DNA of 39,484 nt, from IMG/VR virus record IMGVR_UViG_3300046689_000328, positions 1 to 39,484 of that record. One strand, given 5' to 3'. This document shows, piece by piece, positions 7,721 to 26,917 of the stretch. The notes under the pieces were generated by a model that saw only the letters and a list, made by a program, of their open reading frames with translations, did not search any database and was not told the DNA's origin. Every line of letters begins with the position of its first letter. Position 1 is the first letter of the stretch. The stretch is from a virus. The position numbers and the translations under genes were made by a program.

Positions 7721-8883
7721 TGGCAGACATCTCAGCGTGGTCGCCGATCGACGAAAGTAATACATCGGCGCCGCCGGATGGCTGGCCGGAGTTCATGCAA
7801 AATTCCATGGTCAACAACTCCGCCCGCGCCATGATGGGGGCGGTGCGGCGCTGGTACGACCAAGTGCTCGACGGCTCGCTGCATCTGCCATACGTCTCGT
7901 CGACCGGCGGCGGGATGACCGGCGGGCTCACGGTAAACTCCTCGTCCGGCATCAGCGTCATCGGCGGCGGCATCACCGCGTCGGGCCTCATCCAGGGCGG
8001 CAGCCTCTCATCGCTCGGGGCGGCATCGATATCGGGCACGGTGACCGCGGGCAATCTCGGCACCACCGGCACTCTAAACGTCCAAGGCGGTGCCACGATC
8101 GCCGGCAGCGTCACCACCGGCGCATTGCAGGCGACCTCGCTGTCGTCCCTCGGCGCGATCGGCGCCACCGGCACCGTCACTGCCGGCGGCCTCGTCAGCA
8201 CCGGCAACATCTCGGCGAGCAACGATATCTTGGTGGGCAACAACGCCTCGATCCCAGGCACCGCCACAGTCGGCGCGCTCGTCAGCACTGGCGATATCGG
8301 GGCCGCCGGCACGCTGACCGGGGCCATCATCAGCTCGAGCGGCGCCATCAACGCGGCGGGCGCGGTCAACGCCGCGCAATACAATATCCACGGCTTGACG
8401 CTGCTCACCTCGGTCGGCTCCGCGACGTCCATTTATGACGGCAGCGGCGCGCCCAACATCGTGCTCGATAGCGGCGGCAACAATTTCTACCGAGCCGTCG
8501 CCCACTCCATCATGAACCGCCCGGCCACGATCAGCTACGCGGTGTTCAACGCCACCGGCACCTACAACGCCAGCGGTTCCTGGATCGTCATCTCGGACGA
8601 AGCGGCAAAGACCGACGTCGCGCCCTATAGCCGCGGGCTCTCCGCGCTCAGGGCATTGCGTCCGGTGAGCTTCAAGTATGCCTCCGGGCCATTTGCCGGT
8701 GACGAGACTCGCTATGGCTTGGTCGCACAGGACATGCAGACGGTGGTGCCGGAGATGGTCGCCGAGGTTGATTTCGATGGCGAGCGGTTCCTCGGCCTGC
8801 AGCCCGGGATGTTGATTTGGGCCTTGGTGAACAGTTGCCAGGAGCTGGCTGCTCGGGTCGAAGCCCTGGAAGGAGCACCCTGA
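7720..8883 (+). CDS. Tail fibre with C-terminal S74 self-cleaving chaperone
   Basis: A 387-residue receptor-binding fibre. Residues 1-60 have an adsorption-module start (PPDGWPEFMQNSMVNNSARA, then a WYDQ helix) likely to attach it to the virion. Residues 65-230 are repeated short Gly/Ser/Thr units (TAGNL, TTGAL, STGNI, STGDI), expected to form a trimeric beta-helix. Residues about 290-387 are an intramolecular chaperone/peptidase S74 domain: Ser292-Asp followed by Lys297 (SDEAAK), LRALRPVSFKY, then YGLVAQDMQ, with a final coiled-coil helix. In this family the domain folds the trimer and cuts itself off at the Ser-Lys dyad. It starts with TAATG coupling. Confident for the domain. Confidence 0.85.
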   Translation: MADISAWSPIDESNTSAPPDGWPEFMQNSMVNNSARAMMGAVRRWYDQVLDGSLHLPYVSSTGGGMTGGLTVNSSSGISVIGGGITASGLIQGGSLSSLGAASISGTVTAGNLGTTGTLNVQGGATIAGSVTTGALQATSLSSLGAIGATGTVTAGGLVSTGNISASNDILVGNNASIPGTATVGALVSTGDIGAAGTLTGAIISSSGAINAAGAVNAAQYNIHGLTLLTSVGSATSIYDGSGAPNIVLDSGGNNFYRAVAHSIMNRPATISYAVFNATGTYNASGSWIVISDEAAKTDVAPYSRGLSALRALRPVSFKYASGPFAGDETRYGLVAQDMQTVVPEMVAEVDFDGERFLGLQPGMLIWALVNSCQELAARVEALEGAP

Positions 8884-8905
8884 TCGCCGCCGCCTGAACC
8901 TAATC

Positions 8906-9127
8906 ATGCCGCTGGTCCTGGCACTGATGGTGTTGCTGCATCGGGCCGATGGCGGCGAGGTGCTTGTTGCTGGCCCCCAGATCACCAGCATGCACGCGGC
9001 GGCCCCGGGGGGCGGGAACAAAGTAGTAAATTCGGCAGCGCGTTGCGTCGTCTGGCTGACCGACGGGCGGGTGCTGTCCGTTATAGAGACATGCGAGGTC
9101 GTTCGCAGGTTGTTGGATACGCCTTAA
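8906..9127 (+). CDS. Conserved small phage protein, hydrophobic start
   Basis: A 73-residue protein with a short hydrophobic start (PLVLALMVLLHR) and a beta-like body (GGEVLVAGPQITSMHAAAPG, VVWLTDGRVLSVIETCEVV). The pattern of DGGEV, a conserved small strand, CVVWLTDG and SVIETC resembles small proteins that I believe occur near fibre genes of alphaproteobacterial phages, with no known function. The ribosome site is weak. It lies 22 bases after the fibre. Confidence 0.6.
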   Translation: MPLVLALMVLLHRADGGEVLVAGPQITSMHAAAPGGGNKVVNSAARCVVWLTDGRVLSVIETCEVVRRLLDTP

Positions 9128-9143
9128 CCCAGAGGAGAAGACC

Positions 9144-9518
9144 ATGTCTGATTTTGGTGCAGTGCTGGACTACGCGATGAACCTGGAAGCCTCCCTGCCG
9201 GAAGCCGAGATAGCAAAATTTGAAGCTATCAGGCCGGCTGCTATGGGGATGACGGCGCGCCAGCAGGAAGAGGCGACTAAACTTGCGGCCATGTCGCCTG
9301 AAGACCGCGCCAAGGCCGAGGCCGAGATAGCGCGTAAAAAGGAAGAGAACCGCGCCAAGTATGAAGAAGAGGCGGCAAAGCGGCAGCAGCAGGCGGCTGC
9401 TCGCAGGCAACAGCAGGCGGCGCAGCACCCGGCAACGCCCGCCCCGGCGGCCCCGGCTCACGCCACCGCAGCCGCTCCCGCCCACGCCACCGCGGCGGCG
9501 GACGACAAGCGCAAGTAG
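9144..9518 (+). CDS. Coiled-coil protein with Ala-Pro tail
   Basis: A 124-residue protein with a strong ribosome site (AGGAGAAG about 9131-9138). Residues 35-93 are a charged, heptad-like helix (EEATKLAAMSPEDRAKAEAE, then Lys/Glu/Gln-rich). Residues 95-118 are Ala/Pro/His/Thr-rich with a doubled APAHATAA unit. Such helices plus flexible tails suit a small scaffold, tail chaperone or ejection-protein partner; it sits directly before the transglycosylase-type protein. Function unknown. Confidence 0.6.
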   Translation: MSDFGAVLDYAMNLEASLPEAEIAKFEAIRPAAMGMTARQQEEATKLAAMSPEDRAKAEAEIARKKEENRAKYEEEAAKRQQQAAARRQQQAAQHPATPAPAAPAHATAAAPAHATAAADDKRK

Positions 9519-9533
9519 TAAGGGAAACTACCT

Positions 9534-12008
9534 ATGGCGGACTTCCTCGGCGGCCTGCTCAGCGGCGGCGGCGGCGGGCTCTACGACGACCTGCTGACGC
9601 CGCAGCAGCAGAGCCAACTGTCGGGCCGGGGGCTGCTTGCCATGGCCGGGGCCTTTGCCGACGCCGGGATGCCGAGCCGCCTGCCGATACCGCTCGGCGC
9701 GGCAATCGGCAAGGCGGCGGCGGCGATGGGCACGGGCCGTGACCAGGCGGCGCTGTCGCTCCTGAAGGCCGGGATGACAGTGCAGGAGCTAAAAGCTCTG
9801 CAGCAGAAAATGAAGCTCAATGAATCGCTGACGCCGTTTTTACAGCGCCTCGCTGCCGGCGGCGGCGGTGGCGTGCCGACGCCGACCGAGCCCGCTGAAA
9901 CGCCTGCCTCGGCCGCGCCCATCCCGGCTGCGCCGGTCGCCTCGGCTACTGATTTACCCCCTGGTGGCGTACCCCCCGGTTGGCCCGGTCCAGGCGCTAT
10001 TATCTTGGACGCCGGCGGATACGGCATGCCGCCTAGGCCAAAGCCCCTCCCTTGGACGGGCCTTACGCCTAGCGGCCCGGCTGCGTCACCGGCACTATCT
10101 GGCCCGCCAACGGAGGCCGAGCGTCAGGCGTGGATACAAAGTCGCGTGCAAGGCGGCCAAGACACCATCGAGGATTTTGTCGCGCGGTTTCGCGCTGGCG
10201 GCGGCACCGGGAAAGCCCCGACCGGGCTCCTGGGCCCCGCCCCGCCACTACCGGCGGGTGACGCGCCGCCACCGGATGTCCCGGGGGCCGGCGCCAGTCT
10301 CGGCGGCCTGCTGTCGACGGCCAGCTATGGAGGCGGCGCAAACGGCACGCCCCCTTTCGACCCTGGAGCGGGTGGGGATGACGAGGTCGGCAGCGGCGGG
10401 GGCGACACCAGCAGCCCAGAGTATCTCACTCGCCGAGCGCAGGACCTGGCGCTGGTGCGAAAATACGAAAGCGGCGACCGCAACATCATGCAGAACGTGG
10501 TCGGCCCACAGGGCGGCTATAACCCGAGCGTCGGGCGGGTCACCGGACCATCGAGCGCCGGCGGCTATTACCAGATGATCGACCCAACCTGGCGATCTGC
10601 CGCCAGTTCTGCCGGCATCGACACGGCAAAATACCCGAGAGCGATCGATGCGCCGCCCGAGCTGCAGACGAAGGCGGCGGAGGCGCTGTACGACAAAAGG
10701 GGGCTCGCCGATTGGGCGCCCTACAACAAGGTGCTGGCACGCAATGCGGGTTGGTCGGGTCCAATGGGGGACGGCGGCGGCTCCGGTGGTGGCGCTGCAC
10801 CCTTGGCAACCCCGCCCGGCGCCGGGGCGGCCCTGGCAACCCCACCCGGCGGTGGCATCATCCCTGGCACGGGCATGACGCCGCAGCAACTGGGCGCGCT
10901 CAACGCATTGATGAAGATGGGCGGGCTGGGTGACCCGTTTAACTCGCTGCTGGAGACCTATTACAAGTCGCCGGGGTATCTGGGGGAGGCGGCTGGAGCC
11001 TCGAAGCGTGGCGAACTAGGCGTAGAGCTTGAGCTTAGGCCGAAACTGGAAGCCGCCATCGCCTGGGCAAAGATCGATCCGAATATTAACGAGGCGGAGC
11101 GCAAGGCGCAGATCGACCGTTACTCCAAACTGTTGGAACAAACAACCGCCGCTCAAACCACCACGATAAAGGATGTGCCTGTCCTCGATCAAAACGGACA
11201 AACCGTTCTTCAGAATATGCTGCAGTCTGAAGTAACCCAAAACCGTGCCGACCGAGCAGCGCGCGCCGCCCGCGGCGACACGACGCCCCGCCCCGGCGAC
11301 ATCGTCGGAACGCCTTTTGCGCTTGGCACCACCCCGCCCGGTTACGAGTACCGGACGACGCCGCAAGGCACCCTTGCAGCGCAGCCGGTGCCTGACACAC
11401 CGGCCGCGCGAGAGGCCCAGGATGTTCTCAGGAGGCAAAAGCAGTCCGATCTGCAATTACAGGTTTCACGCGACATTGTGATGCAGAATAGCGACCGCAT
11501 CGAAAACCTAGTGCAAAACTCTGCCTTGCCGACCACGGGGGCGGGTGGCGCATGGCTGTCGAGACTTGGCGGCACCGCGGCCAACGATGTCCGGGTTATG
11601 GTCGAAACCCTCAAGGCTCGCTCATCCCTTGATGCGCTTAACCAGATGCGGCAGAGCAGCCCGACCGGCGGGGCCTTGGGCAACGTCAGCAATGCGGAAG
11701 GGGATCGCCTCGCCGCCGCCTTGTCTAATCTCGACCAATCACAGAGCCAGGGGCAATTCCTGTTCAACCTGCGGCGCGCCAAGCAGGCCTACGTTGATGC
11801 GGTACACGGCCCAGGTGCTTATTCGGCGCTGTCCGATGCGCCTGCCCTTAAGGTGCCGAACGCAGGCGCTGGGGCAGTGGCGCGTCCGGAAGGCTCAACT
11901 GACGCGACGCTGCGGTCCGAGGCTGCGGCGGCTATCGCCGGCGGCAGATCGCGCGCGGCCGTGATCGAGCGGCTGCAGAAAATGGGCGTCAGCGCGGAGG
12001 GCCTCTAA
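9534..12008 (+). CDS. Internal virion protein with lytic transglycosylase-like domain
   Basis: An 824-residue protein. The first ~110 residues are small-residue-rich with predicted helices (LTPQQQSQLSGRGLLAMAGA). Residues 130-300 are Pro/Gly-rich linker. Residues about 305-410 resemble lysozyme/transglycosylase folds: KYESGDRNIM with candidate catalytic Glu312, then SAGGYYQMIDPTW and a WAPYN motif near the end. Residues 480-824 are helical with coiled stretches. This design fits an ejected protein that opens peptidoglycan during DNA entry, as in T7 gp16 or P22-type ejection proteins. It overlaps the next gene by one base. Confidence 0.75.
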   Translation: MADFLGGLLSGGGGGLYDDLLTPQQQSQLSGRGLLAMAGAFADAGMPSRLPIPLGAAIGKAAAAMGTGRDQAALSLLKAGMTVQELKALQQKMKLNESLTPFLQRLAAGGGGGVPTPTEPAETPASAAPIPAAPVASATDLPPGGVPPGWPGPGAIILDAGGYGMPPRPKPLPWTGLTPSGPAASPALSGPPTEAERQAWIQSRVQGGQDTIEDFVARFRAGGGTGKAPTGLLGPAPPLPAGDAPPPDVPGAGASLGGLLSTASYGGGANGTPPFDPGAGGDDEVGSGGGDTSSPEYLTRRAQDLALVRKYESGDRNIMQNVVGPQGGYNPSVGRVTGPSSAGGYYQMIDPTWRSAASSAGIDTAKYPRAIDAPPELQTKAAEALYDKRGLADWAPYNKVLARNAGWSGPMGDGGGSGGGAAPLATPPGAGAALATPPGGGIIPGTGMTPQQLGALNALMKMGGLGDPFNSLLETYYKSPGYLGEAAGASKRGELGVELELRPKLEAAIAWAKIDPNINEAERKAQIDRYSKLLEQTTAAQTTTIKDVPVLDQNGQTVLQNMLQSEVTQNRADRAARAARGDTTPRPGDIVGTPFALGTTPPGYEYRTTPQGTLAAQPVPDTPAAREAQDVLRRQKQSDLQLQVSRDIVMQNSDRIENLVQNSALPTTGAGGAWLSRLGGTAANDVRVMVETLKARSSLDALNQMRQSSPTGGALGNVSNAEGDRLAAALSNLDQSQSQGQFLFNLRRAKQAYVDAVHGPGAYSALSDAPALKVPNAGAGAVARPEGSTDATLRSEAAAAIAGGRSRAAVIERLQKMGVSAEGL

Positions 12009-15172: not shown

Positions 15173-15205
15173 GTGCCAAACCGTGCGCCCTTGACGAAAG
15201 GAGAA

Positions 15206-15227
15206 GGCCAGCCCTTGCGGACTGGCC
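15206..15227 (-). terminator. Terminator for the minus-strand recombination operon
   Basis: On the minus strand GGCCAGTCC-GCAA-GGGCTGGCC forms a near-perfect 9-bp stem (one mismatch) with a GCAA tetraloop, followed by TTCTCCTTTC. It lies 10 bases after the stop of the micro-ORF at 15238-15315 and probably ends the recombination transcript. Confidence 0.6.
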
Positions 15228-15237
15228 CCCTCCCGGT

Positions 15238-15315
15238 TTACCGATAGATCGTCAGCTTGACGCGCACGCCCAGCAGACCCACTATCAGGACCAGGAGTTT
15301 CCGATGTCTCAGCAT
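15238..15315 (-). CDS. 25-residue basic hydrophobic micro-protein
   Basis: The frame has an ideal ribosome site (AAGGAGA, 5 bases before ATG) and encodes a peptide whose centre is HRKLLVLIVGLLGVRVK: a hydrophobic core with Arg/Lys at both ends. It comes after RecT on the same strand and is followed by a terminator hairpin. A related sequence, HRKLSLIIVVIFRIRVK, occurs at 26110-26160 on the plus strand, also followed by a hairpin, which supports selection on the peptide. It resembles small membrane-active peptides; the function is unknown. Confidence 0.55.
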   Translation of the reverse strand: MLRHRKLLVLIVGLLGVRVKLTIYR

Positions 15316-15335
15316 CGGACTCTCCTTTCGCAGAG

Positions 15336-15376
15336 TGCCGGCTTGGGGCCAATCCCGCAGCCGGCATTTTGCTTTT
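15336..15376 (+). terminator. Plus-strand terminator after the holin-like gene
   Basis: TGCCGGCT (15336-15343) and AGCCGGCA (15359-15366) form a perfect 8-bp stem with a 15-nt loop and are followed by TTTTGCTTTT. It stops rightward transcription from the 14942 gene before it runs antisense into the recT gene. Confidence 0.75.
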
Positions 15377-15379
15377 AGG

Positions 15380-16601: not shown

Positions 16602-17490
16602 CGGGGGCCTCCTGTTCCTCTATGGCGCGGACGCGCAAAACGCGGAACGTGCGCTCTGGCAACGTCGTCTCTTTGCGGGTTTGCGGCTTGAACGTTAGCG
16701 ACCAGCCGGGGCACCACGCGGTGCTGGCGGGGCCGAGGCGGTTCTTGATGGCGTAGTCGATTTCGTCGATGCGCTTCTCGGCGTCGCGACGCACCGGCAT
16801 CAGTTCGGCGCGCTCGGCGAGCAGCGAGAGCATCTCGTTGTCGCCGCTGAAATCCCGGTGGGAGCCGTCCGACACCATCTCCGCGAGCCCGGCGGCGGTC
16901 TGCGGCTGCGGCTGCTCGCCCGCATCCCAGCGTTTCCAGAACTCGGCGACGGCATCGAGGATGCGCGCCTCGGCGGCCGGGTGGCGGGGCACGTCGAAAT
17001 AGTGGATGGGATGCCCGGCCGTGCGGATCATCACGGCCAGGACGCCCCAGGCGCGCCCGCACACCAGCATCTCGCACAGGGTCTGGAGGGTGTACGCGAT
17101 CGGGACGGTGCCCCGCCACTTCTCCCATTGCTGGGGTGAGGTGCTCTTCGCTTGTAACAGGCCGTCATCCCCGATCCAGAAGTCCGGGGTGGCGCCGAGC
17201 CGGTGCTCGGGCAACCAGTGGTAGGTGCCGGGTTTCACCAAGTCCCAGGGCTTGCCATCGGCTTTCACGGCGTAGGGGAAGCCGGCTTCGAGGATGTGGC
17301 CATCGCGCATGCTGCTGTTCGGCACTTCACCCGATTGGCCGAGCAGCTCGGCGACGAGGCCGTCGAGCGTCAGGAACGGGTGCAGCTCGAACAGCGCGGC
17401 GACCCGGGATGCGGTGATGTGGTGCCGGCGGCGTTCGAGCCATTCGCCGATGCCGGTTATTGTCCATTGCTCGCGGAATGGCTCGCTCAT
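16588..17490 (-). CDS. YqaJ / lambda-type recombination exonuclease
   Basis: A 300-residue protein. The core has ITASRVAALFELHPFLTLDG, RDGHILEAGF with Glu68, GATPDFWIGDDGLLQAKST with Asp103 and Lys115, and Gln136 in a YTLQTLCEML helix, as in YqaJ/lambda exonucleases that resect double-strand ends for the annealing protein. The usual Asp..Glu-x-Lys active site reads Asp103..Gln113-Ala-Lys115, so the catalytic Glu is replaced by Gln. ATG 17490 overlaps the radical SAM stop (ATGA); the open frame further upstream is not conserved-looking. A C-terminal ~100-residue helical extension is present. Confidence 0.8.
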   Translation of the reverse strand: MSEPFREQWTITGIGEWLERRRHHITASRVAALFELHPFLTLDGLVAELLGQSGEVPNSSMRDGHILEAGFPYAVKADGKPWDLVKPGTYHWLPEHRLGATPDFWIGDDGLLQAKSTSPQQWEKWRGTVPIAYTLQTLCEMLVCGRAWGVLAVMIRTAGHPIHYFDVPRHPAAEARILDAVAEFWKRWDAGEQPQPQTAAGLAEMVSDGSHRDFSGDNEMLSLLAERAELMPVRRDAEKRIDEIDYAIKNRLGPASTAWCPGWSLTFKPQTRKETTLPERTFRVLRVRAIEEQEAPDAAG

Positions 17491-18323
17491 GCCGCCACCG
17501 CATGGATGATGGCGGGCCGTGCCCAGCGGCGCTGAAAGGCGCGCCATTCGGGCGCCGGGCGATGCTTCTCTTGGCTCGGCGTTTCCGGTCGCCACAGCAT
17601 CGCCATCGGGGTAAAGCCGAGGCCGAGGATCTGGCGCAGCCGGCGCTCGGCTTGGATGAAGTCGTCCTTCGGAAAGCCGATCAGGACGTAGCAGCGCAGC
17701 CGGTGGGACTGCGGGGTGAATCCGGCATCGAGCAGGCGGCGAGCCGCGCTCTGCAATGTCTCGAAGGCGTCGCCGGGATCATAGGCGAAGAACATGCTCG
17801 GCCGCGGCGTCAGGCTCGCGAGCAGATCGACCTGATAATCTTCGAGCGAGAGCGCCTCTAACCCGCCGGTAAACTCGCAGCGCCGGTTCTGCCGGCGCAG
17901 CATGGCGAACACCGCCTCGACGTGCTCCCGCGGGCAGGCGAGCAGGTTGTCGTCGAGGATGTTCCAGCCGTCGTAGATCGGCAGCAGGTTCGGCGTCGGC
18001 CATTTCTTCCAGACGCCACAGAACCAGCAGCGGCGTGGGCAGCCGCGCGAGGTGATCGTGTATCCCGGCTTGACGTAGCGGCCGGGAATGAACTCCAGGC
18101 TGTCGTCGCCGTAAGCAACGCCGCCCAGCTTTACCGGCGCCACCCAGCGCCACTGCTCGGCGAGCCGTTCGGCGATCGCCTTGTCATAGGTAAAGGTGAC
18201 GCTGACGTGTACCTCGTCGGCTTCGGCGAACAGATCCGGCGGGCCGACATAGGCGAGCGCGTCGTTGGGCGTCGCTTTGGTGCGCCGCGGGAAGACGCGG
18301 ATAATGCGCGCCGGCTCGCTCAT
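17487..18323 (-). CDS. Phage radical SAM protein of unknown substrate
   Basis: A 278-residue protein with a CX3CX2C iron-sulphur motif (GCPRRCWFC; Cys95, Cys99, Cys102), a GGE-like FTGGLEA segment (151-157) and CYVLIGFPKDDF (211-222), all typical of radical SAM TIM barrels using S-adenosylmethionine. The first ~90 residues (PRRTKATP, ALAYVGPPDLF, EVHVSVTFTYD) look like a small alpha/beta domain. It ends WRAFQRRWARPAIIHAV. It starts at the ATG overlapping the previous stop (ATGA) and overlaps the exonuclease start, so it is made with exo and RecT. A role in DNA or nucleotide modification is possible; the substrate is not shown by sequence. Confidence 0.8.
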   Translation of the reverse strand: MSEPARIIRVFPRRTKATPNDALAYVGPPDLFAEADEVHVSVTFTYDKAIAERLAEQWRWVAPVKLGGVAYGDDSLEFIPGRYVKPGYTITSRGCPRRCWFCGVWKKWPTPNLLPIYDGWNILDDNLLACPREHVEAVFAMLRRQNRRCEFTGGLEALSLEDYQVDLLASLTPRPSMFFAYDPGDAFETLQSAARRLLDAGFTPQSHRLRCYVLIGFPKDDFIQAERRLRQILGLGFTPMAMLWRPETPSQEKHRPAPEWRAFQRRWARPAIIHAVAA

Positions 18324-18571
18324 GGCGGCGCCTGATCGGCGAGCCATTCCCGCGCTAGCTCTAGCTGGCGGCGGGCGAGCACTGTGTCGACGGCCTCGAT
18401 ATAGACAGCGGTGACCACGGTTCGCATGCAGATGTGGCTGCCCCAGTCCGGGTGACTTTTCACCAGCACATCAAAGAGATCGGCAGCCGTCTGGATGCTT
18501 TCCCCCGAGAGCAGCTCGACCAGGATCGCCTCGGCGAGGTCGCGGTCGGCGAGGTCGCGGTCGGCGCTCAT
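18320..18571 (-). CDS. Small helical operon protein
   Basis: An 83-residue, Leu/Ala-rich helical protein with ATGA overlaps to both neighbours. Its start carries a duplicated DRDLA unit from a 15-bp tandem repeat (18532-18561). It has a SIQTAADLFDVLVKSHPDWG segment and no catalytic motif. It is upstream of the radical SAM gene in the same message. Function unknown. Confidence 0.65.
   Translation of the reverse strand: MSADRDLADRDLAEAILVELLSGESIQTAADLFDVLVKSHPDWGSHICMRTVVTAVYIEAVDTVLARRQLELAREWLADQAPP
18532..18561 (-). repeat. 15-bp tandem duplication inside a small gene
   Basis: Two exact copies of CGGCGAGGTCGCGGT (18532-18546 and 18547-18561) give an in-frame DRDLA-DRDLA duplication at the N-terminus of the 18320-18571 product, a recent slippage or recombination event that keeps the frame. 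Confidence 0.8.
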
Positions 18572-22366: not shown

Positions 22367-22621
22367 ATGGGGAAATGCCCGATGCTGCTGCTCGATTTTC
22401 GGCCGATCGAGGACCCCCCGCCGGTGCGGCCGGGTGTCCGTTTTCATACGGTTTACGTGATGCTCGCAGACGATGATCGCGTCTATATGGCGGATTGGGA
22501 CGGCGTCGGTTGGGTTAATCGTTGGGGCGACCCGATCGAGCCGTGCTGCTGGGCCGAACCGTTTGAGATTATCGATCCCATGACGGTTGGCCGTCTCAGG
22601 CTCAGGTCGTCTCTTCCCTGA
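22367..22621 (+). CDS. Hypothetical protein convergent with the repressor
   Basis: An 84-residue protein with an excellent ribosome site. It contains several Trp/Asp residues (VYMADWDGVGWVNRWGDPIE, CCWAEPFEI) and resembles small beta proteins. It runs tail-to-tail with the repressor gene and overlaps its end by 20 bases. Its position in the immunity region suggests expression in lysogens or early infection. No family recognised. Confidence 0.65.
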   Translation: MGKCPMLLLDFRPIEDPPPVRPGVRFHTVYVMLADDDRVYMADWDGVGWVNRWGDPIEPCCWAEPFEIIDPMTVGRLRLRSSLP

Positions 22622-23135
22622 AATCTTCCATGTCCATCCGCAGCGCGGCTGCGACTTTGTCCAGATCGGCGTCTGGCCGGTTCAACGTCAGCGCCAGAAA
22701 TAGCCAGCGGTCGGCATGGCGCAGGACGGTCATTAAGGCCGCTTCCGAAATCATGCGCGGATCGAGCGCCGGGGTTGACGCCGCTCCCAGCTCAAGCGGC
22801 TCAGGCGGCCGGTTCTTCAACCCCAGTACCTCTTCGGTCGGAACCTCGAAGTACTTCGCGATCGCCATCAACTGGTTGATGCCACGCGAGTCCTGTGCCT
22901 TGTAAGTGTAGTCGACGGCCAACCCGGCCCCCAACATCGCCTCGCGCACCGTCACGCCCCTCCGTTTAGCAAGCTCTGCGACCCGCTGCCGAAAGGCTTC
23001 GTCGTCCCAAAATTGCTGTCGCCGACGCCGCCTCGGTTCCGGCGGTGTCTCTTCGGGGTCATCCGGCGGCGGCGGCGGAAGATCTTCTGCCACGCTCTGC
23101 ACTCCCATAACTGATAATGCTCCATTTATAACCAT
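22602..23135 (-). CDS. CI-like phage repressor (HTH_XRE)
   Basis: A 177-residue protein. The first 40 residues are Pro/Glu-rich and then strongly basic (PRRRRRQQFWDDEAF). Residues ~45-105 form a cro/CI-type HTH domain (FRQRVAELAKRRGVTVREAM, YTYKAQDSRGINQLMAIAKYF, then a VPTEEVLGL end). The last 50 residues are helical. No Ser-Lys LexA-type protease is present, so RecA-mediated self-cleavage is not expected; induction may need an antirepressor such as the Bro-N protein. ATG 23135 is the longest start; the in-frame ATG at 23108 is possible. It is divergent from the Cro-position gene. Confidence 0.75.
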   Translation of the reverse strand: MVINGALSVMGVQSVAEDLPPPPPDDPEETPPEPRRRRRQQFWDDEAFRQRVAELAKRRGVTVREAMLGAGLAVDYTYKAQDSRGINQLMAIAKYFEVPTEEVLGLKNRPPEPLELGAASTPALDPRMISEAALMTVLRHADRWLFLALTLNRPDADLDKVAAALRMDMEDFREETT

Positions 23136-23264
23136 ACACCGAGAAAAAAATCTCTCTAACGCTAGCGTGTCATCGGCACTTTGCCTAGCGATATTCGCTT
23201 AAATCATGTAACTCGATTTACATCCTTGCGTAGGCGACCAAAATATCGGTAGCCTGCTCCCGTC
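23136..23264. promoter_or_regulatory. Immunity control region with three inverted repeats
   Basis: Between repressor and the rightward early genes lie three inverted repeats: the palindrome ACGCTAGCGT (23159-23168), AGCGA-tat-TCGCT (23187-23199) and ATGTAA-ctcgat-TTACAT (23206-23223). They differ in sequence; the first two share the AGCG half-core, while the third could be a site for a second regulator. This is where divergent repressor and early promoters and their operators must lie. Exact -10/-35 boxes are not clear. Confidence 0.6.
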
Positions 23265-23579
23265 ATGCTCGACAGTGCATCCCTTCTCAAACTCGCGCTG
23301 GCCTATTCGGCAGCCACCAAAATCACCTTGACCGGCATCGGCAAGCGCGCCGCGGCGAACGACAAAGCCTTTCTGCGTCTAGAGCGCGGCCAGACCATCA
23401 CCCAACGCACCGCTGAAGTTGCCGAGCGCTGGCTGCGCACCAACTGGCCGGAAAACGCCGAATGGCCGAAAGGCATACCCGGTAAGCCGAGGACCTTTGT
23501 CCCGGCCTTTACCTCGCGTCATGCCCGCCGCCGCTGCCCAGAGCGAGAGCGCAACGGGACGCCCACCACCGCCGCCTAA
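23265..23579 (+). CDS. Cro-position DNA-binding-like protein
   Basis: A 104-residue protein at the start of the rightward early transcript. Residues 1-65 (LKLALAYSAATKITLTGIGK, then NDKAFLRLERGQTIT and TAEVAERWLRTNWP) have a helical pattern similar to small phage regulators that I have seen in Cro positions of alphaproteobacterial phages. The C-terminal 30 residues are basic and unstructured. Likely an early repressor or activator; this rests mainly on location. Confidence 0.6.
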   Translation: MLDSASLLKLALAYSAATKITLTGIGKRAAANDKAFLRLERGQTITQRTAEVAERWLRTNWPENAEWPKGIPGKPRTFVPAFTSRHARRRCPERERNGTPTTAA

Positions 23580-23609
23580 CGAACCAACCCAACCGGAGAG
23601 GAAATTCCC

Positions 23610-24044
23610 GTGGCCCAATCCTTGTCGTCAGCCGCCGAGCACAATCCCCTCTCCAACAGCGCCGCCCGCGCCGACACCATCCGCGCCGCGGTGCGCTGGC
23701 TCGCCGAGCACGAGGCCGAGGTCAAGGCGATCAACGCCGAGATCAACGAATACCGGGCGAAGCACATCAAGCGCGATTTGGGTTTCAAGCTGTCGGATTG
23801 GAACGCGATCTACCGGGTGTCGCAGCTTGAGATCGAGGACCGCGACACGCTCCTCGAAACTATCCGCGAAGGGTTCGCCGCACTGAATATCGGCGGCGTC
23901 ATGGATTGGGTGGCGGCGGCGGAAACCGCGCAGCGGCGGAGCGGCAACGACCACGCGAACGGCGCGGGGGAAACGGCGCCCAAGCGTGGCCGCGGCCGGC
24001 CGCGCAAGCAGCCGCACGAAGCCGAGGCCGCCGCGGAGTTTTAA
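23610..24044 (+). CDS. Early helical protein with AT-hook
   Basis: A 144-residue protein that starts with GTG after GAGAGGAAA. Residues 20-110 are helical with coiled-coil character (WLAEHEAEVKAINAEINEYR, KLSDWNAIYRVSQLEIEDRD). Near the end is an AT-hook, PKRGRGRPRKQP (residues about 124-135), a minor-groove DNA-binding motif. I infer a small nucleoid-like or replication-associated DNA-binding protein. It is 3 bases upstream of the 24048 gene. Confidence 0.7.
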   Translation: MAQSLSSAAEHNPLSNSAARADTIRAAVRWLAEHEAEVKAINAEINEYRAKHIKRDLGFKLSDWNAIYRVSQLEIEDRDTLLETIREGFAALNIGGVMDWVAAAETAQRRSGNDHANGAGETAPKRGRGRPRKQPHEAEAAAEF

Positions 24045-24047
24045 GCC

Positions 24048-24617
24048 GTGGCAAAGCTCCGCATGGTCAATGCTCGCACCGCCGAGCAGTGGGCCGAAAT
24101 AATCCAAGCACAGTGGCAGGACAGCGTGAAGGGCATCATGGATGTCGGGCTGTCTCTGCACAATGCACACGAAGAATTGGGAGCGGCTGAATTCCAGAAG
24201 ATGGTTCGCGAGAAGCTTAATTTCTCGAAAGGAACCGTGAGCGCACTTAAGCGGGTGGGCACCGATCCAAAGCTTATGGAAGTTTTGCATGCAAAACTCC
24301 CGGCAAGTTGGGTCACGCTATATGCGCTTGCCCGCCTCACCGACGAGCAGTTCCAGCGGGGCCTCGACACCGGCGTCATCCACGCCGGCATGGAGCGCAA
24401 GGATGTCGCGCTACTGAAACCGCCAAAGGACGAGCCGCGGCCGAAAACAGAGCCGGCATTAACCGGGCGGGAGCTGATCGAGCGACGCACCCTCGAAACC
24501 CGCAAACTGATCGTGACCGTGCTGCATGAGCTAAATCCCTCCGAGCAGTTGGAGTTTATTGCTCTACTTCGCTTCCAGTTAGACGACCTGGAGAGCTCTA
24601 GACAGAAGGCGGCATAA
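24048..24617 (+). CDS. DUF3102-like early protein
   Basis: A 189-residue protein starting at GTG 24048. Residues 10-60 (WQDSVKGIMDVGLSLHNAHE, ELGAAEFQKMV) and 60-110 (NFSKGTVSALKRVGTDPKLM, LPASWVTLYALARLTDEQF) look like a HTH-containing DUF3102/ParB-linker fold that recognises DNA or a partner. The rest is charged with a helical end. It immediately precedes the GHKL ATPase gene and may be its partner. The family call is tentative. Confidence 0.55.
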   Translation: MAKLRMVNARTAEQWAEIIQAQWQDSVKGIMDVGLSLHNAHEELGAAEFQKMVREKLNFSKGTVSALKRVGTDPKLMEVLHAKLPASWVTLYALARLTDEQFQRGLDTGVIHAGMERKDVALLKPPKDEPRPKTEPALTGRELIERRTLETRKLIVTVLHELNPSEQLEFIALLRFQLDDLESSRQKAA

Positions 24618-24621
24618 ACCC

Positions 24622-26019
24622 ATGAAGAAAATGAATATTGGGCCGAAGTCGCGATATCTTTTTTCGGTTCGTGCCGAGCGAGGGGACATCGTGCGGCTTT
24701 GCAGCGAGGCTGCGGATAACTCGCTAGATGCAATGGCGCAAAATATCCATATCGAGATCAGCGACACTGAAATCAAAGTCACAGATGATGGCGTTGGTGT
24801 TCTACTGAAATACGTCCCGGCATTATTTACGCTTGGTGACCACGCCCAACTAAAAAGCACAAAGCTCGGCCGCTTCGGAGTTGGCATTACCAATCAAGCG
24901 ATTAACGCGGCCGACGTGATGGAGGTACGATCCGTCTCGGCTGATGGTTGCTTCCTCTGCCGGGTGAATTGGCGTGACGTGTTGCGGGAGGGCTGGGAGG
25001 TCGATGTTCCAGTGAGATTGCCAATGGTGGTTGGAACGCCGACTGGCACGGTAATCAAGCTCTCGATATTACGGAAGCTGAAGCAGTTCACCATCGACAG
25101 AGTCGTCGAGGATCTGGCGCAGAGTTTTTACCCGGCAATCGCAGAAGGGCGAACAATACGGGTGAACGATGTTACGGTGCCACTGCTTGCCGACCCACCG
25201 ATGGTCGACATTGTGGAGCATCGGTTCGAATTTTCAGACGGCCGGTTTGCTACCCTGCACGCTGGGCTGCTTGCGCAGCCGTCGAAGGTTAACCGGGTTC
25301 ACGTTGGCTTCGGGCACCGCGTAATAATGCCGAGCAGCACTCTGGGTTGCGGCACTTATACCGGGCTCTCGAATATGTTCGCGCGCGTGCAACTAGGTGG
25401 CGCGCGTTGGGCTCTCGCTACATTCAAAAACGACATCACCGACGAAAATCAACGCGAGGAGCTGGAAGACGCAGTCGAAGCCGCGATGACTCCGATATTG
25501 ACGAAATGCGGTAATGTTTCAATGGAGGCGCGGGTAGCTGCGATCGGCGAATTGGTCAACAGCATGCTGCCGGAGGAGTTGGCGGCAGCGCGCCCGCATC
25601 ACGGAAAGAAAGAAGGCAAAAATCCCGGCAATAAATCCAGCAACAAGCAGGGGATTACCGATATAGAGAGGTCCGATCCGGCTGACGGCCCAGCAAAGGC
25701 GCGACGAGCGCCGCAGAAGGACCGACTGCTCATTACCTTCGAGGGCCGCGACAAGGATCACGGCATTGGGTGGTTCGATCCCGGGCGCACAAACCGCGTA
25801 CACCTTTCGCGAGATAACCCGCAGATAGCACAACTGTTCCAGCAACGAGATGACAGGTTTGTCGCTAAGGCGATCGTAGTCATTGCGCTGATGTTGTTTG
25901 AACAGGGGCGTGAGGAGGCAAACCCACAGCTAGAATTTAAGCTGCAATCCTTTGGCCTGCGTGTTGCGCACCATTTGGCGATGGATAACGTCGCGAGAAT
26001 GCCGAAGCAGGCCGGATGA
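24622..26019 (+). CDS. Stand-alone GHKL ATPase (MORC/MutL/Hsp90-like)
   Basis: A 465-residue protein with a full GHKL ATP-binding site: motif I Glu29...Asn33 (EAADNSLDAMA), motif II DDGVG (Asp55, Gly57, Gly59), motif III LGRFGVGIT (Gly83, Gly86, Gly88) and motif IV TGTVIKL (143-149). Residues 150-310 resemble the second, transducer domain. A Lys/Pro-rich linker (325-365) precedes a ~100-residue C-terminal domain. There is no kinase H-box or MutL endonuclease motif. Such proteins bind ATP with dimer closure to clamp DNA or partners. The gene is visibly more AT-rich than its neighbours. It overlaps the 26016 frame by ATGA. Confidence 0.8.
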   Translation: MKKMNIGPKSRYLFSVRAERGDIVRLCSEAADNSLDAMAQNIHIEISDTEIKVTDDGVGVLLKYVPALFTLGDHAQLKSTKLGRFGVGITNQAINAADVMEVRSVSADGCFLCRVNWRDVLREGWEVDVPVRLPMVVGTPTGTVIKLSILRKLKQFTIDRVVEDLAQSFYPAIAEGRTIRVNDVTVPLLADPPMVDIVEHRFEFSDGRFATLHAGLLAQPSKVNRVHVGFGHRVIMPSSTLGCGTYTGLSNMFARVQLGGARWALATFKNDITDENQREELEDAVEAAMTPILTKCGNVSMEARVAAIGELVNSMLPEELAAARPHHGKKEGKNPGNKSSNKQGITDIERSDPADGPAKARRAPQKDRLLITFEGRDKDHGIGWFDPGRTNRVHLSRDNPQIAQLFQQRDDRFVAKAIVVIALMLFEQGREEANPQLEFKLQSFGLRVAHHLAMDNVARMPKQAG

Positions 26020-26227
26020 CCCGCACCCTCGCCATCGACGGCGCCGCGGTTGCCGCTAAAATGAAACGCCGGGCGTTGTGGGCCCGGCGCTTCGGAGGAG
26101 GATGCGAAGCATCGCAAACTCTCGCTGATTATCGTGGTGATCTTCCGCATCCGCGTCAAGATCGTCCGCTAATCAGCGAGGACGGTCAACCCGGCTTGCG
26201 TCGGGTTGGCCTCCCCCGGAGCCGGCC
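26016..26227 (+). other. Remnant ruvC-like start plus hairpin-rich insert
   Basis: An ATG coupled to the GHKL stop begins TRTLAIDGAA, nearly the same as RVLAIDGAATAG at the start of the intact gene at 26228, but after codon 13 the frame runs through structured non-coding-like DNA. Three hairpins follow: CGCCGGGC/GCCCGGCG (26067-26089), an 11-bp CTCGCTGATTA/TAATCAGCGAG (26121-26180) and a 10-bp GGTCAACCCG/CGGGTTGGCC (26184-26211). AGGAGG (about 26096-26101) precedes a start-less frame with HRKLSLIIVVIFRIRVK. It looks like a mosaic junction carrying an RNA element. Confidence 0.5.
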
Positions 26228-26917
26228 GTGATTCGCGTGCTGGCGATCGACGGCGCGGCGACCGCAGGCTTTTGCCTCGGCGGCACCGGCGCGGAGCCGC
26301 GCTTCGGCAGCCGGTGCTTCACCGGCAGCGGTGCCAGTGGCGAAGTCGTGGCGCGGTTCTCGCGGTTCCTGCGCGCTACCATCGAGCGCGAGCAGCCCGA
26401 CGTCATCGCCTACGAGGCGCCCTATTTCCCGATGGGGTTCCGCCGCGGGCCTCCCGCTAACGCGAAGACCCTGCGGCGGCTGCTCGGCCTCGCCGAGATC
26501 ATCGATGCTGTCGCCTGGGACTACCGGGAAGTTGTCCACCGGGGCTGCTACCAGGCGACCGCGGGCGAGGTTACTTCGTACCTGACCGGCAAATCGAATT
26601 GGGGCGGCCGCGCGCCGAAGAAGGCCGCCACGATCGCCGCAGCGCGAGCTTGGGGCTGGGCCGTCAACACCGACGACGAGGCCGACGCCTGCGCCGTCTG
26701 GGCATACGCGGAAAGCATCCTCGACCCGATTGCCGCCGCCCAGCGGCGCGCCCGGCTAGGGCTGGAACTGGCGCTACACCCGCCAGACGAGGACACCCCG
26801 CAGCGACGAACTGCGGGGCGCCGGGGGTCGTCAACCACAAGACCAAGGGGGGCAAGGTCTCATGCTCGAAAAGCAAATACGACAGCCCCCGGCGAATTTC
26901 AATTCACCGCCGGATGA
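26228..26917 (+). CDS. RuvC-like / RNase H-fold junction resolvase
   Basis: A 229-residue protein starting at GTG 26228 with GGAG upstream. Residues 1-165 have an RNase H-type resolvase layout: Asp8 (LAIDGAATAG), Glu63 (IAYEAPYFP), LAEIIDAVAW, Lys-rich region and Asp149/150/153 (NTDDEADACAVW). It would cut Holliday junctions formed in recombination and replication before packaging. Residues 175-229 are a basic, disordered tail (QRRTAGRRGSSTTRP) unusual for the family and containing an 8-bp hairpin at DNA level (26796-26818). The last 56 bases overlap the next gene. Confidence 0.75.
   Translation: MIRVLAIDGAATAGFCLGGTGAEPRFGSRCFTGSGASGEVVARFSRFLRATIEREQPDVIAYEAPYFPMGFRRGPPANAKTLRRLLGLAEIIDAVAWDYREVVHRGCYQATAGEVTSYLTGKSNWGGRAPKKAATIAAARAWGWAVNTDDEADACAVWAYAESILDPIAAAQRRARLGLELALHPPDEDTPQRRTAGRRGSSTTRPRGARSHARKANTTAPGEFQFTAG

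Follow-up and report, generated by a model that had tools for sequence, protein, structure and literature searches.

The window analysed here is an entire virus record of IMG/VR, 39,484 bases long. It belongs to a temperate phage, with an integrase, a minus-strand repressor-like gene and a rightward early operon. Genes are referred to by their first base, and the early operon runs in the order 23265, 23610, 24048, 24622, RuvC-like 26228, DnaB 27449 and DUF1376 28897. The three ORFs on which the initial annotation centred (23610–24044, 24048–24617 and 24622–26019) are all present. A leftward gene group contains RecE-like, RecT-like and anti-repressor genes. The minus-strand gene at 17487–18347, which adjoins the RecE-like gene, matches phrog_9298 (annotated as a radical SAM domain protein) with E 4.5e-15. 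The features discussed below are as follows.

15178–15378 (−): structured RNA element, diverged copy 2, flanked by the RecT-like and anti-repressor genes of the leftward group
22602–23135 (−): repressor-like regulator, weak phrog_8 match
23265–23579 (+): opens the early rightward operon, divergent from the repressor-like gene; phrog_7669
23610–24044 (+): conserved backbone gene whose tail resembles an AT-hook; bounds the variable slot on the 5′ side and lies outside the cassette
24048–24617 (+): partner, 189 aa, DUF3102-like, with a predicted helix-turn-helix (HTH) at about residues 46–71 and a C-terminal helical hairpin
24622–26019 (+): GHKL ATPase with an S5-like module, 465 aa; a charged linker leads to a family-specific C-terminal domain
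26056–26232 (+): structured RNA element, copy 1, directly after the ATPase and before the RuvC-like gene
26228–26917 (+): RuvC-like resolvase, phrog_159; bounds the variable slot on the 3′ side

A variable slot in the early operon

Homologues of 23610 are present in seven contigs (the window, G001 and G004–G008), and the RuvC-like gene lies downstream of the homologue in all seven. What stands between these two genes differs: two contigs (the window and G001) carry the 24048–24622 pair, three have other content, and two are empty. The slot of G004 holds a two-gene cassette (258 aa and 306 aa), that of G007 an HNH gene, and that of G008 one ORF of 148 aa partly overlapping the structured RNA element, while G005 and G006 have only a few bases there. 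Because the flanks are kept in the seven contigs while the content between them changes, we regard 23610 as backbone and the pair as cargo. At locus L014, the cassette consists of 8586–9362 (258 aa, weak HTH match) and 9375–10295 (306 aa, matching phrog_5931, of unknown function).

The GC contents of the ATPase (0.554) and 24048 (0.577) are below those of 23610 (0.678) and 26228 (0.694), confirming the AT-richness noticed earlier. The cargo in the window and G001 is 7–14 points under 23610 and the RuvC-like gene, and the GC of the G004 and G007 cargo is also under both flanking genes; the G008 ORF has a GC of 0.635. The pair at locus L004 is not AT-rich (0.662–0.674, locus 0.642). An AT-rich pair in a slot with changing cargo supports the earlier suggestion that it was acquired, here as a cassette. 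The AT-hook assigned to 23610 fared unevenly: the Pfam match (12.7 bits) is under the cut-off of 17.4, whereas the tail RGRPRK is kept in all six aligned homologues.

The structured RNA element at the 3′ end of the slot is about 180 nt long, folds with −94.8 kcal/mol (z −5.8) and has copies with 80–88% identity in four other contigs. A covariance model built from the window sequence 26056–26232 and these four copies detected the minus-strand copy at 15178–15378 (37.6 bits, z −6.5), together with an identical-sequence copy in G004 and a copy in G002 (49.9 bits). Copies are present in five of the eight other viral records. Across eight copies (seven distinct), 34 of the 59 pairs changed on both sides, compared with a mean of 9.0 in shuffles and 2–7 in slid versions; because the copies were aligned to the model itself, this count is biased towards the structure. 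TAAAAT or TATAAT stands at the start of the element in six of the eight copies. In the 501 bases scanned, no Rfam family scored as high as its gathering threshold, and there were no matches to the element in the phage and plasmid collections. The two copies, one per transcription direction, resemble the put antitermination sites of HK022 in this respect; the element could act as an antitermination RNA of the put type or as a small RNA. Ahead of the element lies a 75% repeat of the first ~32 bases of the RuvC-like gene (26017–26048 vs 26229–26260), and at L014 the ORF ahead of the RNA copy begins like the other RuvC type. From these two observations, it looks as if the RNA element was swapped along with the gene that follows it.

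The ATPase and its partner

The protein encoded by 24622 was initially described as a stand-alone GHKL ATPase with an intact ATP site, and the profile searches agree. All four motifs are present, and PF13589 (HATPase_c_3) matches at 37.4 bits (cut-off 25, E 3.1e-9), which places the protein in the GHKL superfamily; PF02518 matches at 26.7 bits (cut-off 26.4). The columns invariant in an alignment of the window, L003, L004 and Mycobacterium phage Bobby proteins are E29/D32/N33 (N box), D55-D56-G57-x-G59, G86-V87-G88, T143 and K269, the last in the S5-like half. No S5 model matched; homology to Bobby gp96 runs through residues 5–308, which take in the ATPase and the S5-like region, with K269 invariant. 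Within the family, the final ~100 residues are conserved, and the C-terminal domain showed no relation to the C-termini of the Bobby protein or of MzaB. An alternative start at ATG 24631 agrees with the MN/MH-IGP start of the relatives. The AlphaFold model of the ATPase from three sequences has a pLDDT of 32. In three pairwise comparisons, dN was 0.205, 0.288 and 0.291 against dS of at least 1.2; 24622 is clearly under purifying selection, with dS saturated.

No kinase or Toprim model matched 24622, consistent with the reported absence of a kinase or endonuclease motif. The only restriction-enzyme-type matches, REase_II and BbrUII, involve the ATPase residues alone and are weak or far under cut-off. 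PADLOC defence profiles gave nothing significant (only REase_II for the ATPase, E 0.049, and none for 24048 or 23610). When a profile of the three close copies and Bobby gp96 was used, the top PDB matches were MutL N-terminal domains (E 7e-4).

By profile or motif, we reject membership of 24622 in the MutL, RIIA, MzaB and MORC families. The MutL model TIGR00585 gave 21.5 of 180 bits, over residues 29–63 only. No RIIA PHROG profile matched at E ≤ 1, and the hhalign probability with rIIA was 1%. The NCBIfam MzaB model scored 17.9 bits, with a cut-off of 850 that the comparison proteins of R. etli (421.6 bits) and R. leguminosarum (444.3 bits) also fail to reach. Prokaryotic MORC and paraMORC proteins, as described by Iyer, Abhiman and Aravind (2008, PMC2292703), share with 24622 the GHKL and S5-like architecture and a conserved basic residue. 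They differ in the S5 motif GhXhhpXXRhl, which 24622 does not keep, and in an SF2 helicase or nuclease neighbour, which 24622 lacks. By eye, the equivalent stretch of 24622 is RVHVGFGHRVI, which keeps R233 but not the glycine or the h/p positions; in R. etli MzaB, it is GFYVYRGDRLV. By the published S5 motif, 24622 is not a MORC protein.

The DUF3102-like label of 24048 is probably right, a DUF3102 protein being at rank 2 for the 24048 model in a viral fold library (E 0.61, not significant), but weak, since PF11300 (DUF3102) matches at 12.8 bits with a cut-off of 24.4. The predicted fold has a helical domain with an HTH at 46–71, further helices and a C-terminal helical hairpin. The model (mean pLDDT 60.8) is confident only at about residues 10–75 (block means 70–91), and Foldseek found nothing at E ≤ 0.001 in either library. 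Residues 7–72 can be superposed on the ParB DNA-binding domain 6s6h (Z 5.4, 59 residues, 3.3 Å), a match tied with unrelated helical proteins and under the level deemed safe for helical bundles; no ParB sequence match was found. As the ParB-domain match is tied with unrelated chains, we infer DNA binding by 24048 rather than observe it. The protein is not detectably related to rIIB or Bobby gp95. Another protein (L013, 9072–9998), called a DUF3102 relative by eye, shows neither a DUF3102 match nor similarity to 24048 by profile.

Pairing and relatives in known systems

An IMG/VR scan starting from the partner found two relatives, each with the ATPase directly behind it, and a scan starting from the ATPase alignment reached the same two contigs. 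Whole-record profile searches of eight viral records detected the ATPase in two and the partner in the same two. Among the window and the eight related viral contigs, the two genes are thus together in three and apart in none, and the conservation of the ATPase with its neighbouring gene holds. They are closely spaced, with a 4 bp gap in the window, 0 bp in L003 and a 4 bp overlap in L004. At the last of these loci (record G002), the pair is set in a different phage background and preceded by an HNH gene, and the record contains no match to the 23610-like (A6) or RuvC-like (A5) profiles. The close pairs number three only, all from uncultured viral contigs, so the co-occurrence rests on few independent events. 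The initial annotation also placed 23610 in a three-gene system, which we reject because 23610 homologues occur without the pair in five of seven contigs and the G002 pair occurs without 23610; co-conservation extends to 24048 and 24622 and stops there.

At E ≤ 0.01, the ATPase had relatives in one of 50,697 phage records and in none of 72,556 plasmid records. With the L004 ATPase as the query and E ≤ 1, four phage and 22 plasmid records matched; no plasmid match spanned more than 45% of the query. Four of the 22 plasmid matches and one of the three unannotated phage matches were inspected. The inspected plasmid matches include an MzaB-type ATPase of an MZA system and a gene beside DruA, in line with the earlier remark that such ATPases have relatives in defence loci. 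On a plasmid of Roseivivax sp. THAF30 (L021, 4857–8611), an MzaB-like ATPase (83.7 bits, under the MzaB cut-off) lies directly upstream of an annotated Druantia DruA. A first pattern-limited scan of bacterial genome contigs yielded 55 stretches and no ATPase relative. A second, likewise pattern-limited, yielded at least 590 stretches and confirmed at least two, in a Mollicutes MAG and a Bacilli MAG (over residues 21–81 and 4–78 only). No relatives of Bobby gp96 were found in viral contigs, and none of the open-licence papers listed in literature searches named a phage pair like 24048/24622.

Bobby gp96 is a GHKL and S5-like ATPase of similar length to 24622, which it matches in hhalign with a probability of 98.3% over residues 5–308. 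It also lies in an early operon behind the repressor, in the order repressor, HTH gene, gp95 (ParB/HTH) and gp96 (GHKL/S5-like), so that a DNA-binding-type gene stands directly ahead of it. However, the identity is 25%, the C-terminal domain is not detectably shared, and gp95 is a ParB-N and HTH protein not homologous to 24048; it matches HTH models and, under cut-off, a ParB model.

The rIIA and rIIB proteins of T4 are likewise a phage pair of a GHKL ATPase and an HTH protein. T4 rIIA falls just short of the HATPase_c_3 cut-off (22.1 of 25 bits), and rIIB has an N-terminal HTH-like segment. T4 rIIA matches six named RIIA PHROGs and phrog_609, which matches both T4 proteins. It differs from 24622 in belonging to another family by profile and in its length of 725 aa with its own C-terminal region, and T4 is a lytic phage whereas the window is temperate. 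Judged by this analogy, the window pair most likely resembles rIIA/rIIB in its way of working while being unrelated by sequence beyond GHKL. According to the available text of PMC11879866, a knock-down study, divergent rII modules counter RexAB in diverse phages and are not broadly critical on Rex-free hosts; the same text calls the module widespread yet poorly understood, with a specificity still unclear nearly seven decades on. In a survey of jumbo phages, rIIA is listed among counter-defence proteins as one of the GHKL type (PMC7824862).

Two defence proteins also invite comparison. MzaB of the MZA anti-phage systems is of the GHKL type and similar in size to 24622, and the R. etli protein gives an hhalign probability of 92.6% over residues 1–186, where the homology ends. 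The C-terminal parts are unrelated, no MZA partner genes accompany 24622, and Z1/AIPR neighbours of the MZA type are absent among the ten window genes scanned. VcSduA, a Shedu protein with a GHKL domain, is similarly a GHKL ATPase in phage conflict, but it carries a fused PD-(D/E)xK nuclease that the window protein lacks, as far as it is described in the available text of PMC12137116.

Expression context and possible function

The ORFs 23610 and 24048 are 3 bp apart, and a consensus promoter scan found no promoter-like site in 23244–26035; for these reasons, the pair is probably transcribed as part of the early operon. Such a position, in an early lytic operon and without a separate promoter-like site in the scan, points to action shortly after infection or induction, and favours counter-defence or takeover over defence of the lysogen.

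We propose a working model for the pair, built largely by comparison with better-known proteins. The 24622 protein probably dimerises when it binds ATP, as MutL and other GHKL/S5 ATPases do, and the dimer would form a clamp or a switch. Its partner 24048, small and helical and with an HTH that may be ParB-like, probably brings the ATPase to DNA, which would involve contact between the two proteins. The pair would most likely serve early counter-defence or host takeover, as T4 rIIA (GHKL) and rIIB (HTH) counter RexAB. We favour counter-defence because of the early lytic position and because rIIA/rIIB is the closest functional precedent. Our tentative best explanation, held with somewhat less than even confidence, is that 24048 and 24622 form an early accessory two-gene cassette of an ATPase clamp and a DNA-binding partner, most likely for counter-defence or takeover.

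Prophage-borne defence or superinfection exclusion, in which the ATPase and partner sense invading phage DNA and block it, appears unlikely. The inspected bacterial homologues are MzaB-like, one in a locus with Z1 and AIPR and one beside DruA, and variable prophage slots can hold defence genes, as the available text of PMC12137116 states for other prophages. However, the cassette contains no nuclease, protease or other effector, and the pair follows the repressor within the lytic operon, where the scan gave it no separate promoter-like site. We give rather little weight to a role as a replication or recombination accessory, namely a MutL-like ATP clamp working with the downstream RuvC-like resolvase and DnaB. 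The pair is directly upstream of the RuvC-like, DnaB and DUF1376 genes, and MutL N-terminal domains are the best PDB profile matches; against this, the RuvC-like gene is without the pair in five of seven contigs, and the G002 pair has neither an A5 nor an A6 profile match in its record. A transcription or nucleoid regulator without a conflict role, whose HTH-like partner would bind operators while the ATPase remodels or compacts DNA in a MORC-like manner, is improbable despite the HTH-like partner and the adjoining AT-hook-like gene, since contigs that keep the flanking genes may have nothing or an HNH gene in the slot, which is unusual for a core regulator.

The counter-defence reading has a more specific form, which we consider doubtful: the pair may represent a separate rIIAB-type counter-defence lineage in temperate phages, with an ATP-gated GHKL/S5 clamp, exchangeable ParB-like loaders (of the 24048 type, or of the ParB/HTH type of phage Bobby) and a cassette slot in the early operon.

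The slot, with its constant flanks and changing cargo, is a place to seek further early-acting phage genes. Stand-alone GHKL ATPases of phages are mostly unnamed. A small pair of a GHKL/S5-like and an HTH-like protein, whose genes are coupled in each of the few relatives found, would be tractable for asking what these ATPases clamp and which host defence they answer.
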